Shown here: piece after piece, positions 1 through 8,050 of the stretch
Numbering within the stretch: position 1 is the first letter of the stretch
How the letters are laid out: each line of letters opens with the position of its first letter
Assembly (NCBI GenBank): GCA_030828565.1
Contig: JAURCF010000002.1
Location: forward strand, 1-48,144
Direction: 5' to 3'
Length of the DNA stretch: 48,144 nucleotides
DNA from: Flavobacteriaceae bacterium
GTDB lineage: Bacteria > Bacteroidota > Bacteroidia > Flavobacteriales > Flavobacteriaceae
Notes under the pieces: generated by a model
Told to the model about the DNA's origin: nothing
Seen by the model: only the letters and a program-made list of their open reading frames with translations
The model's database searches: none
Program-made: the position numbers and the translations under genes

Positions 1-9
1 AAACAACCC

Positions 10-27
10 TTAACGTACCGTTTAAAT
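10..27 (+). promoter_or_regulatory. Candidate Pho-box-like direct repeat: TTAACGT-N4-TTTAAAT (11-bp period)
   Basis: TTAACGT at 10-16 and TTTAAAT at 21-27, 46 bp before ATG 73. Same register as stronger motifs at 1350, 4396 and 5668. Weak on its own. Confidence 0.35.
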
Positions 28-72
28 TGGAGGCGTTCTTTTGCGGTGTTAAATAAACAAATCTATAAAAAA

Positions 73-1296
73 ATGAAAAAACTATTTAAAAATTATTCTT
101 TGTTGTTGATCACTTTATTAATCACTTCTTGTGGAGGTGACGATAGTGTTGTTATTGGTGAAGAAAATAATGATTCATCTTCTTACACGTTGAGTGGTAC
201 TTATTCAGACAGCAAAACGCTATCAGCTGACAACATTTGGACTCTTAAAGGAAGAGTTACTTTTACTTCTGGAACTACATTGACTATCCCAGCGGGAACT
301 ATAATTAAGGCTCAAGGAGGTACAGGAACTAATGCATCTACTTTAATTATTGCAAGAGGAGCAAAGATTGATGCTCAAGGAACTGCTAGCAATCCTATTG
401 TTATGACTTCAGTAGCGGATGATATTGAAGTTGGTCAAAAATTTGGAACTAACCTAAACGAAAACAATCGTGGTTTGTGGGGTGGACTTCTTATATTAGG
501 ATATGCTCCTTGCTCATTCGAAAATGACGTTACTCAAGTTCAAATAGAAGGAATTCCAGTAACCGATACCAACGGTCTTTATGGTGGAGATGATGCCACT
601 GACAATTCGGGTATTGTAAAATATATCTCTATACGTCACGGTGGTGCATTGATTGGAGATGGAAATGAAATCAACGGCCTAACATTAGGAGGTGTTGGTT
701 CAGGAACTGTAATTGAAAACATTGAAGTTGTCGGAAACGTAGATGACGGAATTGAATTTTTTGGAGGAACTGTAGACGCTTCAAACTTGTTGGTTTGGGG
801 TCAAGGAGATGACGGTTTGGATATCGACCAAGCCTATTCAGGTACTATTGATAACGCAATGGTAATTGCTGGAAACGTTTCTGATCATGGTCTTGAAATT
901 GACGGTCCTGAAGGAGCTGCCGAAGGTTCATTTATTCTCAAAAATGTTACCTTAATTGGAAGCGAAGTTGCCGCAGATGGAGAATACGCTGATTACCGAA
1001 GCAATGCTATGGGAGCTTCTGAAAATATTTTTGCTTATGGTTTCCAATCAGGGAAAGATGTTGAATTAGACAATGACGGTGTTGCAACCAACTTCAATAG
1101 TGGAAAATTGAATTTTGCCAGCTGGGAAATTATCGCTCCAGCAGGAGTAACTGTTGCAGATATTTTTCAAAACAAAGCAGAAACAGTAACTGTTTCAAAC
1201 TTTGGAGACTTTGCAACTTTAGTAACAACAGGGACTGTTGGTGCTAATGCCGCTGATTTTGCTTGGACATACGCTAAAGAAAAAGGAGCTTATTAG
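73..1296 (+). CDS. Putative surface/secreted lipoprotein, beta-helix-like, downstream of a candidate Pho box
   Basis: ORF 46..1296; ATG at 73 gives signal peptide MKKLFKNYSLLLITLLITSCGGDD with lipobox-like ITSC. Repetitive GTxLTIPAGTxIKAQ.../IVMTS motifs as in Bacteroidota surface lipoproteins. Followed by a perfect terminator. Confidence 0.75.
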   Translation: MKKLFKNYSLLLITLLITSCGGDDSVVIGEENNDSSSYTLSGTYSDSKTLSADNIWTLKGRVTFTSGTTLTIPAGTIIKAQGGTGTNASTLIIARGAKIDAQGTASNPIVMTSVADDIEVGQKFGTNLNENNRGLWGGLLILGYAPCSFENDVTQVQIEGIPVTDTNGLYGGDDATDNSGIVKYISIRHGGALIGDGNEINGLTLGGVGSGTVIENIEVVGNVDDGIEFFGGTVDASNLLVWGQGDDGLDIDQAYSGTIDNAMVIAGNVSDHGLEIDGPEGAAEGSFILKNVTLIGSEVAADGEYADYRSNAMGASENIFAYGFQSGKDVELDNDGVATNFNSGKLNFASWEIIAPAGVTVADIFQNKAETVTVSNFGDFATLVTTGTVGANAADFAWTYAKEKGAY

Positions 1297-1320
1297 GGCA
1301 TCACTTTTCATAAAATTTAA

Positions 1321-1351
1321 AAATCCAACCTTTAGGTTGGATTTTTTTTTT
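1321..1351 (+). terminator. Rho-independent terminator
   Basis: AAATCCAACC-TTTA-GGTTGGATTT perfect 10-bp stem followed by a T run. Confidence 0.92.
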
Positions 1352-1378
1352 AACCAATGCATAACTTTTTAGTAACAT
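1350..1378 (+). promoter_or_regulatory. Candidate Pho-box-like array: TTAACCA-N4-ATAACTT-N4-GTAACAT
   Basis: Three 7-bp units starting at 1350, 1361 and 1372 (exact 11-bp period), upstream of the TonB-dependent receptor. Confidence 0.5.
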
Positions 1379-1422
1379 ACTGGGGGGATTGAATTGGGAT
1401 ATTTGCAAAAAATATTTCTCTA

Positions 1423-4242
1423 ATGAAAGTGTTCAAAATTACTGCTACTATATGTCTTGTTCTTGGATTGAGTTTCTTTGGAAATTCCCAAACAGGGATT
1501 GTGTCTGGAACCATAATTGATCAAGGGTTTCAAGATCCAGTTCCTTTTGCTAATGTCATTGTTAAAGATCTTCAAAAAGGAACTTCGAGTGATTTTGATG
1601 GGAGTTACGAATTGGTTTTAGAAGAGGGAGAATACACGCTGATTTTTTCGTTTTTAGGATACAAAACCGTTGAAATTTCTGATGTAATAGTCCAAGTTGA
1701 TCAGGTAAATGTATTGAATGTTACTCTGGAAGAACTTTCGCAGGGCTTGGATGAAGTAGTTGTTACTGTTAGTGCTAGGCAAAATACAGAGCAAGCCGTT
1801 TTAACCTTTCAAAAGAAATCGGTGAGTTTACTGGACGGTTTGTCTTCGCAAAGCTTTAAAAAAACGGGCGCAAGTGATATCGCATCGGCCGTAAAAAACG
1901 TTCCTGGAGTTTCGGTTCAAGGAGGTAAGTATGTATATGTTCGAGGTTTGGGCGATCGCTATACCAAGTCAATTTTGAACGGCATTGATATCCCCGGATT
2001 GGATCCCGATCGCAATACCATTCAAATGGACTTATTCCCAACCAATATATTGGATAATGTACTGGTTATTAAATCTGCCACAGCCGACATGCCAGCCGAT
2101 TTTACCGGTGGAATTGTTAATGTAATTACCAAGGAATTCCCCACTCAAAAAGAGTGGAGTGTATCGATTGGTACTTCTGCAAATCCAAATATGCATTTTA
2201 ATAGTGATGCTTTGGATTATGAAGGTGGAAAAACCGATTTTTTAGGATTTGATGATGGAACGCGATCGCTGCCTACAAATCTCAATGCGAACTACTCCCC
2301 CATAGAAATAATTAACAATCCCATTCTAACAGAAGTAACCAAAAAATTTACTCCTACATTGGCTGCTGAGCGAAAGTCGAAAGGACCCAACCTAAGTCTT
2401 TCGATTTCTGGTGGAAATCAATTCAATATTGGAGAAAGTGGAAACAAACTAGGTTTTTTTGGATCGCTTTCTTATAAAAACAACAGTACTTTTTATAAAA
2501 ATGCCGAAGATAATACCTATCGAAGAAGCTCAAACAAAAGTGTGTATGATATAGAAGTCAATCGAACTCAAATAGGAGATTTATCAACCGATAACGTTAT
2601 ATTGAGTGGTATGACGGGTGTCTCATTTAAGACCAATACCTCCAAATACAAACTCAACTTACTGCACATTCAAAATGGACAGTCGACTTCAGGGGTTTTT
2701 AACCAATCGCTAAGATTTTCAGATTTTGAGAACTATTTAAAAGATAATTTAGAATATGTTGAGCGATCTATATCCAATGTGCTTCTCTCTGGAGATCATT
2801 CTATTTTAGATGGTTCTTGGAAAGTGGCCTGGAAGCTTTCGCCTACTCGTTCGTCAATTCAAGACAAAGATGTAAGAACAACCGCTTTTAGAATCAACGA
2901 TGAAGGAGGCTTTAGTATTCCCCAAAACCTTCGCCCCACTCGTATTTGGAGAGATTTACAAGAAGTCAACGTAGTTGGTAAATTGGACGTAACTAAAAAA
3001 CTCACATTGTTTGGAAGAGATGCTCGGCTGAAAACCGGAGGTTATGCTTCTTTTAAAGAGCGTGATTTTGACATTTATAAATACGAGATCGCTATTAGTG
3101 GTTTCAAAGGAATTTCGGAAGGAGACTCTAATCAAATTTTGGCAGCTGATAATATTTGGTCTTTAGAGAACCCAGAAGGAAATTATATAGATTTATTATC
3201 TACGGTGGCTGAACAAGGAACGTCTTTTAGTGCAAAGCAAATTACTTTTGCTGGCTATTTTTCGTCCGAATTTAAGGTGTCTGAATCTCTTCGAACCGTG
3301 TTGGGTCTTCGTGTTGAAAAATTTGATGTATTCTACACTGGTGTAAATAGTTCAGGAAAAATAGCGCTAATCAATGCTAAAGTAATCGATAAAATTGATT
3401 TGTTTCCTTCGGCAAACTTTATTTATGCGCTAACCGATGAAAAAAACATTCGCTTGTCGTATTCAAAAACTACTGCAAGGCCTTCTTTTAAGGAAGTTTC
3501 TATTGCTGAAATATTTGACCCACTTTCGAACCGAACTTTTTTAGGAAATATCAATTTAGAGCCTACTTATATTGACAATTTGGATTTGCGTTACGAAATT
3601 TTTGGCGAAAATGCATCCTTTTTTGCGATAAGCGGGTTTTATAAATCGTTTAAAGATCCTATTGAATTGACCTATTCCGAAGCTGCTGCTGATAATTTTC
3701 AACCCAAAAACTTAGGAAATGCCGAGGTATTTGGAGTTGAATTGGAAGTTCGAAAAAATTTAGACTTTATGGGAGCCGATAACTGGAATGTAAATCTAAA
3801 TACTTCCATTATTAAGTCCAAACAAGATTTTAGCGAGAGCGAGTATAATTTGCGTTTATTGGGGTTGAGGGAAGGCGAGACTATAGAAAAATCAAGAACA
3901 TTGCAAGGACAGTCTCCTTTACTAATAAACGCTGGACTGACTTATAATAATGAAGACAATGGAATTCTTTCAGGGCTCTATTATAATGTTCAAGGAAAAA
4001 CATTGGAAATAGTAGGAACTGGGGTTGTTCCGGATGTATATACGCTCCCTTTTCACAGTTTGAATTTTAATTTTTCAAAGAATTTTGGAAAAGACAAAAA
4101 GCACGCAATTACACTACAAATTAGTAATGTGTTAGATTCCAAAAGAGAAAGTCAATATGAGTCTTTTAAGGCTGACAACAAAATCTTCACACTTAGAGAA
4201 CTAGGAAGAACGTTTTCGGTGGGGTATCAAATTCAATTATAG
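1423..4242 (+). CDS. TonB-dependent receptor with N-terminal carboxypeptidase-regulatory-like domain
   Basis: Signal peptide, GTIIDQ..PVPFANVIVKDLQKGTSSDFDGSYEL (CarboxypepD_reg-like), plug domain VPGVSVQGGKYVYVRGLGDRYTKSILNG, C-terminal beta-barrel strand ending GRTFSVGYQIQL. Confidence 0.92.
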   Translation: MKVFKITATICLVLGLSFFGNSQTGIVSGTIIDQGFQDPVPFANVIVKDLQKGTSSDFDGSYELVLEEGEYTLIFSFLGYKTVEISDVIVQVDQVNVLNVTLEELSQGLDEVVVTVSARQNTEQAVLTFQKKSVSLLDGLSSQSFKKTGASDIASAVKNVPGVSVQGGKYVYVRGLGDRYTKSILNGIDIPGLDPDRNTIQMDLFPTNILDNVLVIKSATADMPADFTGGIVNVITKEFPTQKEWSVSIGTSANPNMHFNSDALDYEGGKTDFLGFDDGTRSLPTNLNANYSPIEIINNPILTEVTKKFTPTLAAERKSKGPNLSLSISGGNQFNIGESGNKLGFFGSLSYKNNSTFYKNAEDNTYRRSSNKSVYDIEVNRTQIGDLSTDNVILSGMTGVSFKTNTSKYKLNLLHIQNGQSTSGVFNQSLRFSDFENYLKDNLEYVERSISNVLLSGDHSILDGSWKVAWKLSPTRSSIQDKDVRTTAFRINDEGGFSIPQNLRPTRIWRDLQEVNVVGKLDVTKKLTLFGRDARLKTGGYASFKERDFDIYKYEIAISGFKGISEGDSNQILAADNIWSLENPEGNYIDLLSTVAEQGTSFSAKQITFAGYFSSEFKVSESLRTVLGLRVEKFDVFYTGVNSSGKIALINAKVIDKIDLFPSANFIYALTDEKNIRLSYSKTTARPSFKEVSIAEIFDPLSNRTFLGNINLEPTYIDNLDLRYEIFGENASFFAISGFYKSFKDPIELTYSEAAADNFQPKNLGNAEVFGVELEVRKNLDFMGADNWNVNLNTSIIKSKQDFSESEYNLRLLGLREGETIEKSRTLQGQSPLLINAGLTYNNEDNGILSGLYYNVQGKTLEIVGTGVVPDVYTLPFHSLNFNFSKNFGKDKKHAITLQISNVLDSKRESQYESFKADNKIFTLRELGRTFSVGYQIQL

Positions 4243-4370
4243 AAAATTAATATTATCATAATGTTGAATAAACTTTTTAATAATATCATATAATTATTTT
4301 TGGTTGTAATTACATTTTTAGATCATTGGACAATTAGTTTTAGTCAACTTTATTTGAATTTGATCTTTTT

Positions 4371-4397
4371 AACTGCCTCTGGCCAAGGCAGTTTTTT
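4371..4397 (+). terminator. Rho-independent terminator
   Basis: AACTGCCT-CTGGCCA-AGGCAGTT 8-bp stem plus TTTT. Confidence 0.8.
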
Positions 4398-4435
4398 AAC
4401 TTTGATTTAATGTTAAGTTAACATTGGTGTTAGAT
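4396..4435 (+). promoter_or_regulatory. Candidate Pho-box-like array of four repeats: TTAACTT-N4-TTAATGT-N4-TTAACAT-N4-GTTAGAT
   Basis: 7-bp units starting at 4396, 4407, 4418 and 4429 (exact 11-bp period), 26 bp upstream of the porin start. Confidence 0.6.
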
Positions 4436-4461
4436 ATTTACCGCGACTAAAACTAACATCA

Positions 4462-5664
4462 ATGATAATAAAAAAACGACTCATATTTGCAGTTGTATTG
4501 TTTGCTATTTCTTTTGCAAATGCTCAAACAGAAAACAATTATATCTCTAAAGGAAAATTCGGTAAAGGAATTTTCAACTTTGTAGGCAAAGACAGTACTT
4601 GGAGTATTAAAATGGCTGCAAGAATGCAGATGCTAAGCACCTTTAATTTTGAAAACGAAAATGGACTAAGAAATATGAGTTCATCCGCATTGTTAAGAAG
4701 GTCTCGTTTGAAATTTGATGGATTTGCATACACGCCAAAGCTAAAATACAAACTGGAGCTAGGGTTATCAAACAACGATTTGAGTGGAGGAGATATTACT
4801 TCAAAAAATGCCAACCGCTTGATTTTGGATGCCGTAGTAATGTGGAATTTTGCAGGAAATTTTGAGTTGTGGTATGGACAAACCAAATTACCTGGAAATA
4901 TAGAGCGGGTAATTTCTTCAGGGAATTTACAACTTGTAGATCGCTCAAGGCTTAATAAAGAATTTACCATCGACCGTGAGTTTGGTTTGCAGTTAAGGCA
5001 CCATTTCAATTTGACGAAAACATTTGTAGTTCGTGAAAAACTAGCCATTTCTCAGGGAGAGGCAAGAAATATTACGGTTGCCAATAAAGGAGGGCATCAG
5101 TACACAGGACGTTTGGAACTCCTTCCGCTTGGATTGTTTGAAAGCAAAGGAGACTACTCGGGTGGGGATTTGAAAAGAGAAAAATCTCCAAAATTAATGT
5201 TGAGTGCAGGCTATAGCTATATTGAAGATGCTGTAAGAAAAAGAGGAAACCAAGGTGATTATTTTATTGACTTAGACGAAGATGGAAAGTGGTTGTCAAC
5301 TGGAGCCAGTGCAACGGATGTGAAAACGACTTTTATAGATGCTATGTATAAGTACAATGGTTTTTCTTTTATGGGAGAGTATGCAAAAAGAACTGCCAAT
5401 GATGAAACGAATGTAAGAGTTGGAGATGGATTGAATTTGTCAGCAGGATACCTATTTAAAAGCAACTGGGAAATTGCAGGGCGTTTTACAAACGTTTCTT
5501 TAGATGGAGTTGCAAAGGTGGAAGAAAGAAATGAATATACGATTGGAATTTCACGGTATGTTGTAGGCCACAAGCTAAAAATACAAGCAGATGCAAGCTA
5601 TATCGATATCATTGGAAAAACGAATACAGCAGGAGTTCGATTCCAAGTGGATATTCATCTATAA
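4462..5664 (+). CDS. OprO/OprP-like (phosphate-selective) porin
   Basis: Signal peptide ending ANAQ; ..FNFVGKDSTWSIKMAARMQ...RRSRLKFDGFAYTPKLKYKLELGLSN.. is typical of the porin O/P family; sits next to a PiT transporter. Confidence 0.82.
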   Translation: MIIKKRLIFAVVLFAISFANAQTENNYISKGKFGKGIFNFVGKDSTWSIKMAARMQMLSTFNFENENGLRNMSSSALLRRSRLKFDGFAYTPKLKYKLELGLSNNDLSGGDITSKNANRLILDAVVMWNFAGNFELWYGQTKLPGNIERVISSGNLQLVDRSRLNKEFTIDREFGLQLRHHFNLTKTFVVREKLAISQGEARNITVANKGGHQYTGRLELLPLGLFESKGDYSGGDLKREKSPKLMLSAGYSYIEDAVRKRGNQGDYFIDLDEDGKWLSTGASATDVKTTFIDAMYKYNGFSFMGEYAKRTANDETNVRVGDGLNLSAGYLFKSNWEIAGRFTNVSLDGVAKVEERNEYTIGISRYVVGHKLKIQADASYIDIIGKTNTAGVRFQVDIHL

Positions 5665-5667
5665 ACC

Positions 5668-5685
5668 TTAACGTTTAAGTAACAT
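5668..5685 (+). promoter_or_regulatory. Candidate Pho-box-like direct repeat: TTAACGT-N4-GTAACAT
   Basis: 7-bp units at 5668 and 5679 (11-bp period), just after the porin stop and upstream of the PiT gene. Confidence 0.5.
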
Positions 5686-5758
5686 AACAAAATTCACTTA
5701 TACAGACATTTACAAAGACGTCTAGATTAAAATTATTGTAACAGACAAAATTATATTT

Positions 5759-8050
5759 ATGGATACTATTTATTTATTAATGATTGTCGCTTTAGCAGTT
5801 CTTGCTATTGCAGACCTTGTTGTGGGAGTTAGCAACGACGCTGTAAACTTCCTTAATTCTGCGATTGGCTCGAAAGCTGTATCGTTTAAAAATTTAATGA
5901 TTGTTGCTAGTTTAGGAATCGCGGTTGGAGCCGTTTTTTCGAGCGGTATGATGGAAGTGGCTCGGAAAGGAATTTTCAATCCGGGAGAATTTATGTTCAA
6001 CGAAATCATGATCATATTTATGGCCGTGATGATTACAGATATTCTTTTATTGGATTATTTCAACTCTGTTGGAATGCCAACCTCTACTACTGTATCCATT
6101 GTTTTTGAATTGTTAGGAGCTGCAGTTGCCATGGCTTTAATTAAAATTGGTGTAGCGGGTGGTGATTTTTCTGAAATCGTTAATTACATCAATACCTCAA
6201 AAGCAACTCAAATCATTTTTGGAATTCTACTGTCTGTTGTCGTAGCATTTTCTGTAGGTGCTGCCGTACAATGGGTTTCCAGATTGTTGCTTTCTTACGA
6301 TTTTGAAAAAAAATCAAAATGGGTAGGTGCGGTTTTTGGAGGAATTGCTTTGACGGCAATTACCTACTTTATTTTGATGAAAGGAATCAAAGGAACACCT
6401 TATGCCAAAGTGAGTTTTGACATCATTGGAGAAAGCACTATTAAGGATTTTATGGAAAATTATGTTTTGGCAATTGTAGCTGTTGCCTCTGTTTTTTGGT
6501 CTTTATTGTCCTATTTGTTAGTTCAAGTTTTTAAAATCAATATTTATAAACTAATCATTTTAGTAGGGACTTTTGCTTTGGCATTGGCATTTGCTGGTAA
6601 TGATTTGGTTAATTTTATCGGAGTTCCTATTGCTGCATGGCAATCGTACGGTGCTTGGATTGATTCAGGACTTGCTGCCAATGAATTTAGCATGGGTGTA
6701 TTGGCTTCCAAAGTTCCCACTCCCAGTCTCCTATTGTTTTTTGCTGGAATGATTATGGTGGTTACACTTTGGTTTTCTTCCAAAGCAAAAAGAGTCGTTA
6801 AAACCTCCATTGACCTGTCAAGTCAAGGCGATACCAAAGAGCGTTTTGAGCCTAATTTCTTGTCTCGAATGTTTGTAAGAGTTGGTATAAAAGCTTCTGA
6901 ATACACAAATACATTGATTCCTAATAAAGTGCTCCAAAAAATCGAGAAACAATTTGAACCCATCAAAGTTCAAAAAAATACAGCCGTAGCTGAAGCCGAT
7001 AAGCCTGCCTTTGACATGGTAAGAGCTGCCGTTAACCTTATGGTTGCAAGTGTGTTGATTTCTATTGCTACTTCCTACAAGCTTCCCTTGTCAACTACCT
7101 ATGTCACCTTTATGGTTGCTATGGGTACTTCATTGGCTGATAAAGCTTGGGGAACCGAAAGTGCTGTATATCGTGTAGCAGGTGTACTCAATGTTATTGC
7201 TGGATGGTTCTTTACTGCAATTATTGCTTTTACTGCAGCCGCTACCATTGCTTATTTAATCAATATAAGTGAGTTGATGATTGCTGTATTGCTCTTTGTA
7301 GCATTGATTATACTTGTCAAAAGCTCAATGTCTGGAAAGAAGAAAAACGGGCAAGTTGATGAGGAAGAATTGAGAAATGCTGAAAGCAGCTCTATCCAAG
7401 GAGTCATTCAAGAGAGTACCAAAAACGTTGCTAACGTTGTGAAGCGTGGTCAACGAATTTATTCGAATGCAATCGAAGGACTTGCAAAACAAGATTTGAA
7501 TTTGTTAAAGAAAAACAAACGACAAATTGTTAAGCTTTCCGAAGAGGTAAACGACTTGCGCGATCATATCTTTTACTTTATAAAAAATCTGGACGAATCC
7601 AGTTTAGGGGCAAGTAACTTTTACATTAGTCTTTTGGGCGATTTGCAAGATATTACTCAATCTTTGGAATACATTTCCAAAGTTAGCTTCAAGCACGTCA
7701 ACAACAACCACAAAAAATTAAAATACAATCAAATTCATGAATTAAAGGAAATTGATAATGAATTGAATTCGTTATTGAACGAGATCAGGGACATATTCAG
7801 TCAAAATGAATTTTCTAGAATTGTGGGTGTCTTGTCTAAGAAACAATCATTGTTTGATGCTATTTCATCAAAAATAGAAGCGCAAATAACCCGAACCAGA
7901 TCGGATGAGTCAAGTCCTAAAAACACAACGCTATACTTTTCATTGTTACTAGAATCAAAAGATTTAATCAACACAATGATGTCCTTTTCGGAGTTGTATC
8001 ATAAGGAATACGATGCCTCTATTGAACCAGCAACGATTAAAGAAGATTAA
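5759..8050 (+). CDS. Inorganic phosphate transporter, PiT family, with PhoU-like C-terminal helical domain
   Basis: Duplicated PiT signatures (VGVSNDAVNFLNSAIGSKA; AGNDLVNFIGVPIAAWQS), many TM helices, and a ~220-aa C-terminal coiled/helical region (residues ~540-763). Confidence 0.93.
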   Translation: MDTIYLLMIVALAVLAIADLVVGVSNDAVNFLNSAIGSKAVSFKNLMIVASLGIAVGAVFSSGMMEVARKGIFNPGEFMFNEIMIIFMAVMITDILLLDYFNSVGMPTSTTVSIVFELLGAAVAMALIKIGVAGGDFSEIVNYINTSKATQIIFGILLSVVVAFSVGAAVQWVSRLLLSYDFEKKSKWVGAVFGGIALTAITYFILMKGIKGTPYAKVSFDIIGESTIKDFMENYVLAIVAVASVFWSLLSYLLVQVFKINIYKLIILVGTFALALAFAGNDLVNFIGVPIAAWQSYGAWIDSGLAANEFSMGVLASKVPTPSLLLFFAGMIMVVTLWFSSKAKRVVKTSIDLSSQGDTKERFEPNFLSRMFVRVGIKASEYTNTLIPNKVLQKIEKQFEPIKVQKNTAVAEADKPAFDMVRAAVNLMVASVLISIATSYKLPLSTTYVTFMVAMGTSLADKAWGTESAVYRVAGVLNVIAGWFFTAIIAFTAAATIAYLINISELMIAVLLFVALIILVKSSMSGKKKNGQVDEEELRNAESSSIQGVIQESTKNVANVVKRGQRIYSNAIEGLAKQDLNLLKKNKRQIVKLSEEVNDLRDHIFYFIKNLDESSLGASNFYISLLGDLQDITQSLEYISKVSFKHVNNNHKKLKYNQIHELKEIDNELNSLLNEIRDIFSQNEFSRIVGVLSKKQSLFDAISSKIEAQITRTRSDESSPKNTTLYFSLLLESKDLINTMMSFSELYHKEYDASIEPATIKED

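Follow-up and report, generated by a model that had tools for sequence, protein, structure and literature searches.

The 48,144-nt stretch analysed here (the window) is the entire contig JAURCF010000002.1 (C16) of a Flavobacteriaceae genome (assembly GCA_030828565.1; 1.55 Mb, 92 % complete, 100 contigs). It contains a block of four genes that encode, in order, a lipoprotein, a TonB-dependent receptor (TBDT), an OprO/P-type porin and a PiT phosphate transporter. This block is probably a segment of a phosphate-starvation regulon that includes a Pho-controlled antisense small RNA (sRNA) repressing the porin, a reading that we hold with good confidence. Read directly from the sequence are tandem repeat arrays, their spacing, phase and conservation, the structure and covariation of the sRNA, and complementarity between its seed and the porin mRNA with compensatory changes.

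Eleven 7-bp units upstream of the four genes had been listed as candidate Pho boxes in a first-pass annotation of this DNA, and direct reading bears out all of the coordinates and sequences and the exact 11-bp spacing (Table 1). A Pho-box matrix trained on the PiT promoters of 60 Flavobacteriaceae, with the window's own genus left out, ranks three positions highest in the window, over both strands: 5667 (17.0 bits, PiT), 1360 (13.7 bits, TBDT) and 4406 (9.8 bits, porin). The fourth-best score is 5.6 bits, and under a Markov null each 48-kb strand should hold 0.125 matches of ≥10 bits. In the 1.55-Mb genome there are two occurrences of the strict pattern TAACnTTnnnnTAACAT (1362 and 5669), both within the gene block. 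By itself, the lipoprotein site at 10-27 is weak (-1.5 bits); the array there is cut by the contig start, and the sister genome L061 holds a complete array in the same phase. The 11-bp repeat arrays exceed chance.

The arrays also keep a fixed position in the promoter. The flavobacterial -7 consensus, taken from the transcription start site map of Flavobacterium psychrophilum, is TAnnTTTG, spanning -12 to -5 (PMC9723704). A TAAC starts exactly 29 bp 5′ of TTTG or TTTA in all four promoters (11 to 40, 1373 to 1402, 4408 to 4437 and 5680 to 5709). At the -40/-29 positions the TBDT, PiT and porin promoters score 10, 10 and 9 of 10, and the 212 other ATTT[GA] anchors of the window all score below 8. 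In a sample of 80 PiT loci from other Flavobacteriaceae genomes (up to 22 kb each), units lie 18, 29, 40 or 51 bp from TTTG, distances that are all equal modulo 11. In activating PhoB boxes, a half-site sits in place of the -33/-35 element. As one unit is fixed 29 bp before the -7 box, a half-site would here occupy the place of the -33 element, and the arrays thus have the features of a Pho box in being 11-bp tandem direct repeats whose fixed position and helical phase overlap the -33/-35 element. The porin and PiT -7 boxes (ending at 4440 and 5712) read TTTA in the window and TTTG in L061.

A dimer of units is found 45-95 bp upstream of PiT in 76 of the 80 loci, with the consensus AAAAnATAACnTTnAGnTAACAT and then GATATTTGC at a fixed distance. 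Promoter-type matches account for 237 of the 255 strong matches in these loci (91 PiT, 87 porin, 23 TBDT, 7 lipoprotein and 29 others, many of the last at small genes neighbouring the TBDT). The spacing between TAAC cores upstream of block genes peaks at 11, 22 and 33 bp, and some TBDT promoters have up to six units. Across the 80 loci, placement before phosphate-acquisition genes is found for PiT and the porin. Scans upstream of PhoX and PstS genes gave mixed support, and in genomes with a true PstS its gene generally adjoins that of the porin.

According to the first-pass annotation, the proposal would fail if a genome-wide scan found the motif to be as common upstream of non-phosphate genes. 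When the scan was run, strict matches were concentrated in the PiT/porin locus and also occurred beside phoB. Among the 138 matches listed for 37 genomes of the family, about 40 (our count from the coordinates) are in the PiT/porin locus, which makes up well below 1 % of a genome. The remaining located matches, likewise counted from the coordinates, comprise five next to phoB, five upstream of a small MORN-like gene (found in the PiT/porin locus elsewhere) and one at a porin-pst locus. Three of the five MORN-gene cases are upstream of aspS and might be taken for false positives. This was rejected, as the site belongs to the divergent MORN-like gene, which carries it to new neighbourhoods. In many genomes this gene, for a small secreted protein of about 105-125 aa, diverges from the sRNA and has a reversed Pho-like array, which is kept when the gene is next to aspS (examples are L380 4681-5001, L379 4838-5200 and L220 1070-1426).

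Strict-pattern sites were also seen before long genes with a carboxypeptidase-regulatory-like N-terminus (L308, L256, L274, L309, L288 and L305), which are probable SusC-type TonB receptors and possibly further regulon members. In four genomes, strong Pho-like dimers (18-23 bits) occur in similar sequence context 380-490 bp 5′ of varied genes (L239, L255, L244 and L207), two of them RNase R-like, and for these a link to phosphate is not apparent. Other search forms were of less use. For genome-wide ranking, a covariance model of the box built on sequence alone (R1) was too short, giving three matches after Infernal bias correction, the best at 5663. Three perfect tandem units proved too strict a pattern (38 matches against 26 in the control), and a pattern including the -7 box permitted too many spacers and was barely above its control.

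The host genome encodes two OmpR-type regulators, one PhoB-like and beside a PhoR/PnpS-like kinase, the other RprY-like. PhoB and PnpS/PhoR are the best matches of the first pair, yet the scores fall below the curated equivalog cut-offs. In eight genomes the phoB orthologue has a reversed dimer 59-155 bp upstream, scoring up to 26.4 bits. As the search patterns came from PiT promoters only, these matches tie the motif to the PhoB-type regulator. Matches to the pattern in these genome-wide searches also recur at porin, TonB-receptor and lipoprotein units. The most conserved bases of the Riemerella anatipestifer PhoP motif, determined by DNA affinity purification sequencing, are TTTAACA (PMC9603813). 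In the phoBR cluster of Flavobacterium johnsoniae, Fjoh_0545 (TBDT) and Fjoh_0546 (pectin-lyase-fold lipoprotein) are strongly induced by phosphate (Pi) depletion (PMC8115612). The phoB-adjacent matches, the conserved arrays and this induction support the earlier proposal that a PhoB-type regulator controls all four units, and hence the identification of the arrays as putative Pho boxes. Binding by another OmpR-type regulator such as the RprY-like one is improbable. OmpR-family sites do look alike, and the Riemerella PhoP motif also resembles that of ArcA (PMC9603813), but the genome has only two such regulators, the reversed arrays precede phoB in eight relatives and the targets are phosphate genes.

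A fifth promoter of the same design, lying between the TBDT and porin genes, had been overlooked in the first-pass annotation. When the arrays farther 5′ of porins were inspected, a segment was found that comprises a conserved TATTAGTTTTTGTCGACTA and an intrinsic terminator and is complementary to the porin leader. Of 70 porin loci scanned, 56 carry it; it mostly lies some 125 nt 5′ of the leader, to which 12-21 nt are complementary. In 49 aligned relatives the promoter preceding it reads TTAATaATta.TTAATaTT.a.aTTACA and then GATaTTtG, that is, three 11-bp units in the phase of the Pho arrays.

Folded one by one, the sequences of the segment give the same three elements: a 5′ hairpin, a middle hairpin with the seed in its loop, and the terminator. 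Two-sided changes are found at 13 of the 23 base pairs (97 cells, against ≤15 in slid controls), and the share of paired cells is 88.9 %. The analysis relied on per-sequence folds and a stated structure, because local misalignment in the raw MAFFT alignment hid the terminator from RNAalifold. A covariance model (R2) scores the window copy, which is one of its 51 rows, at 61.8 bits (genome-wide E 2.8e-11), and strong matches lie directly before porins in further genomes. A weak second match was seen elsewhere in the host genome (G000:C36:7355-7415; 31.5 bits, E 0.001). Against Rfam 15, nothing was at or above a family's gathering score. The predicted sRNA appears to be a family of its own, not previously described, and it has the marks of a base-pairing sRNA, namely its own promoter and terminator, a covarying structure, and conserved mRNA complementarity with compensatory changes.

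Positions 0-10 are paired in all 44 distinct seed-leader pairs. Double compensations are seen at position 3 (A-T to T-A, in the window's genus and in Lutibacter) and at position 9 (T-A to C-G, in two sequences), and every one-sided change at positions 0-10 is G-U compatible. When seeds were swapped between genomes, 517.7 +/- 1.0 of 528 pairs were retained, against 525 observed, and none of 2000 swaps was as high. In the window, the predicted duplex (-24.0 kcal/mol; 5 of 300 shuffles equally good) runs from mRNA +1 to +12 onto the start codon, where AUCAUUGG of the sRNA pairs with UCAAUGAU of the mRNA.

Genome-wide, the target 14-mer CGACAAAAACTAAT occurs mostly as an inverted pair 120-220 bp apart, and a search of its other copies found no recurrent second target. 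This arrangement would also suit a pair of DNA operators, with inverted copies of a 14-bp site near -110 and at the start of the porin to which a DNA-looping repressor would bind, and operator copies would co-vary too. Nevertheless, we consider this very improbable, because one of the copies forms part of a hairpin loop, in a covarying structure that ends in a terminator and has its own -7 box and Pho array upstream, because DNA does not require one-sided changes to be G-U compatible, and because orphan sRNA genes persist without a porin copy. A cis-acting leader is also improbable. In that model, the seed of transcripts reading through from upstream would fold back on the porin leader and mask the start codon, so that translation would be confined to transcripts from the porin promoter. 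The seed and leader are indeed on the same strand and only 110-250 nt apart, but a strong terminator separates them, the seed has its own promoter, and it occurs after unrelated upstream genes.

Pairing by an sRNA might instead stabilise or activate the porin mRNA. A seed covering +1 to +12 could protect the extreme 5′ end, and the sRNA and porin promoters are of the same kind. We regard this as rather unlikely, given that the window duplex reaches the start codon and that the predicted 5′ untranslated region is 17 nt, so that pairing should block ribosomes.

We propose the following scheme. A PhoB-type response regulator would bind the tandem TTAACnT half-sites, one per 11-bp helical turn, in arrays phase-locked to the sigma-A -7 box with one half-site substituting for the -33 element, and would activate the separate lipoprotein, TBDT, porin and PiT promoters when Pi is limiting. 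The fifth promoter would transcribe the sRNA, predicted to have three hairpins and a terminator end, from just 5′ of the porin gene. The sRNA would offer UUAGUUUUAGUC in a hairpin loop, pairing with nt +1 to +12 of the porin mRNA and also, in the present species, with the start codon, most likely blocking ribosome entry and limiting porin synthesis. The shared promoter design implies an incoherent feed-forward loop, in which the porin may be made on Pi limitation and then capped or switched off as the sRNA brake builds up. The sRNA units (TTAAT/TTAC) are weaker matches, and a later response of the sRNA promoter is a guess. With somewhat less assurance, we think it likely that this holds across the Flavobacteriaceae, a large bacterial family of seas and soils, with one PhoB-type switch transcribing both the porin and a dedicated neighbouring antisense sRNA, whose stem arm could extend to the start codon, to act on outer-membrane permeability.

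Several observations weigh against this interpretation. At the host's own phoB the site is a weak one, with 3.1 bits (p = 0.09), and about 60 % of the strict-pattern matches in other genomes have no explanation in a Pho locus. Across species, contact with the start codon is only modestly above controls (7.46 against 7.12 +/- 0.17 in swaps). The densely sampled genus g130 of the order sample (probably Flavobacterium) gave no strong sRNA match. The F. johnsoniae OprP gene is not induced by low Pi (PMC8115612), and the response of the porin may differ. Finally, two genomes keep the sRNA gene before PiT without an adjacent porin (L376 3479-3587 in G014 and L382 4415-4531 in G135). In such lineages the sRNA is either a relic or, as its persistence suggests, directed at further targets.

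Table 1. Features of the gene block and of the predicted sRNA in the window
Feature	Position	Strand	Basis
Pho-box units TTAACGT (10) and TTTAAAT (21), lipoprotein gene	10..27	+	Sequence; TAAC at -29 from TTTG 40-43
Three Pho-box units (1350, 1361, 1372), TBDT gene	1350..1378	+	Sequence, matrix score, phase
Four Pho-box units (4396, 4407, 4418, 4429), porin gene	4396..4435	+	Sequence, matrix score, phase
Two Pho-box units (5668, 5679), PiT gene	5668..5685	+	Sequence, matrix score; conserved in relatives
-7-like box TTCTTTTG, lipoprotein promoter	36..43	+	TAnnTTTG consensus
-7 box GATATTTG, TBDT promoter	1398..1405	+	Sequence, phase
-7-like box GATATTTA, porin promoter (GATATTTG in L061)	4433..4440	+	Sequence
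-7-like box GACATTTA, PiT promoter (GACATTTG in L061)	5705..5712	+	Sequence
Fifth Pho-type array TTAATAT (4247), ATAATGT (4258), TAAACTT (4269), sRNA promoter	4247..4275	+	Consensus of 49 relatives, phase
-7 box TATTTTTG, sRNA promoter	4295..4302	+	Consensus of relatives
Predicted sRNA of about 91 nt (by analogy, start set 5 nt 3′ of TTTG; terminator as end)	4307..4397	+	Covariance model, covariation
sRNA stretch ATCATTGG, complementary to porin start-codon region UCAAUGAU	4322..4329	+	Duplex prediction
sRNA seed TTAGTTTTAGTC, complementary to porin mRNA +1 to +12	4334..4345	+	Complementarity
sRNA intrinsic terminator, AACTGCC...GGCAGTT and T run	4371..4397	+	Folding, covariation
Porin mRNA 5′ end GACUAAAACUAA, sRNA target	4445..4456	+	Complementarity
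Outer-membrane lipoprotein, 407 aa, beta-helix (pectin-lyase-like) fold	73..1296	+	Predicted model
Terminator-like hairpin 3′ of lipoprotein gene	1322..1349	+	Sequence; hairpin not in sister genome L061
TBDT, 939 aa; CarboxypepD_reg, plug and barrel domains	1423..4242	+	Pfam
OprO/P-type porin (Porin_O_P)	4462..5664	+	Pfam
PiT phosphate transporter, C-terminal PhoU-fold domain (about aa 535-750)	5759..8050	+	PHO4 match; AlphaFold model

The lipoprotein had no matches in a Pfam scan. Its model has a predicted local distance difference test (pLDDT) score of 90, and the best PDB matches are beta-helix enzymes, with low template modelling (TM) scores. The predicted beta-helix fits the type of the F. 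johnsoniae pectin-lyase-fold lipoprotein, a comparison made on fold only. The TBDT scores below the cut-off of the TonB-Xanth-Caul family. Between these two genes, the window (1320-1412) has a terminator, a Pho box and a -7 box that are not present in L061 (5620-5790), and a promoter has thus been gained or lost recently.

For the last 244 residues of PiT (7316-8047) an all-helical domain is predicted (pLDDT 89), and PhoU proteins are its top structural matches (TM 0.69). No PhoU or PstS family matches were found in the host genome, as assembled (92 % complete). This makes the fused domain a candidate link between transport and PhoR, and the fusion may explain how phosphate is sensed in bacteria of this kind.

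In the Pho boxes of Escherichia coli PhoB and Bacillus subtilis PhoP, 6-7-bp direct repeats recur every 11 bp and overlap the -35 region at phosphate genes. The arrays described here share the 11-bp direct repeats and, with B. subtilis, the TTAACA-like core. However, in the window and its relatives they consist of 2-6 units, lie 29 bp before the TTTG of the Bacteroidetes -7 box and are reversed at phoB, and in the host Pst and PhoU were not found in the genome. The R. anatipestifer PhoP study (PMC9603813) concerns a PhoP/PhoB-type regulator of a related bacterium and a motif with TTTAACA at its core, but describes no 11-bp arrays at PiT or porin promoters and draws no connection between that system and phosphate starvation. 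In F. johnsoniae, the phoBR cluster PUSIV likewise groups OprP, a TonB receptor and a pectin-lyase-fold lipoprotein, with the TBDT and lipoprotein genes Pi-induced, but OprP is not induced and neither a Pho box nor an sRNA was described (PMC8115612). No description of a Pho box for Bacteroidetes was found in the literature searched, which mostly excluded subscription papers. The putative box is precise in unit, period, phase and distance to the -7 box, and is open to scanning and mutation. It would also group lipoproteins and TonB receptors of unassigned role with phosphate acquisition.

Another sRNA conserved in flavobacteria and believed to work through base pairing is Rfp18 of F. psychrophilum, but its targets are metalloproteases, without a link to porins or phosphate (PMC9723704). 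The sRNA predicted here would add an undescribed family with one obvious target, in a phylum with few recognised sRNA targets. In enterobacteria, the sRNAs MicF and MicC repress porins via the 5′ region of the mRNA. Like them, the predicted sRNA would pair within the 5′ part of the mRNA for an outer-membrane porin. It differs in that its gene adjoins that of its only evident target and is preceded by a Pho-type promoter, the pairing starts at +1, and no Rfam family matches it.

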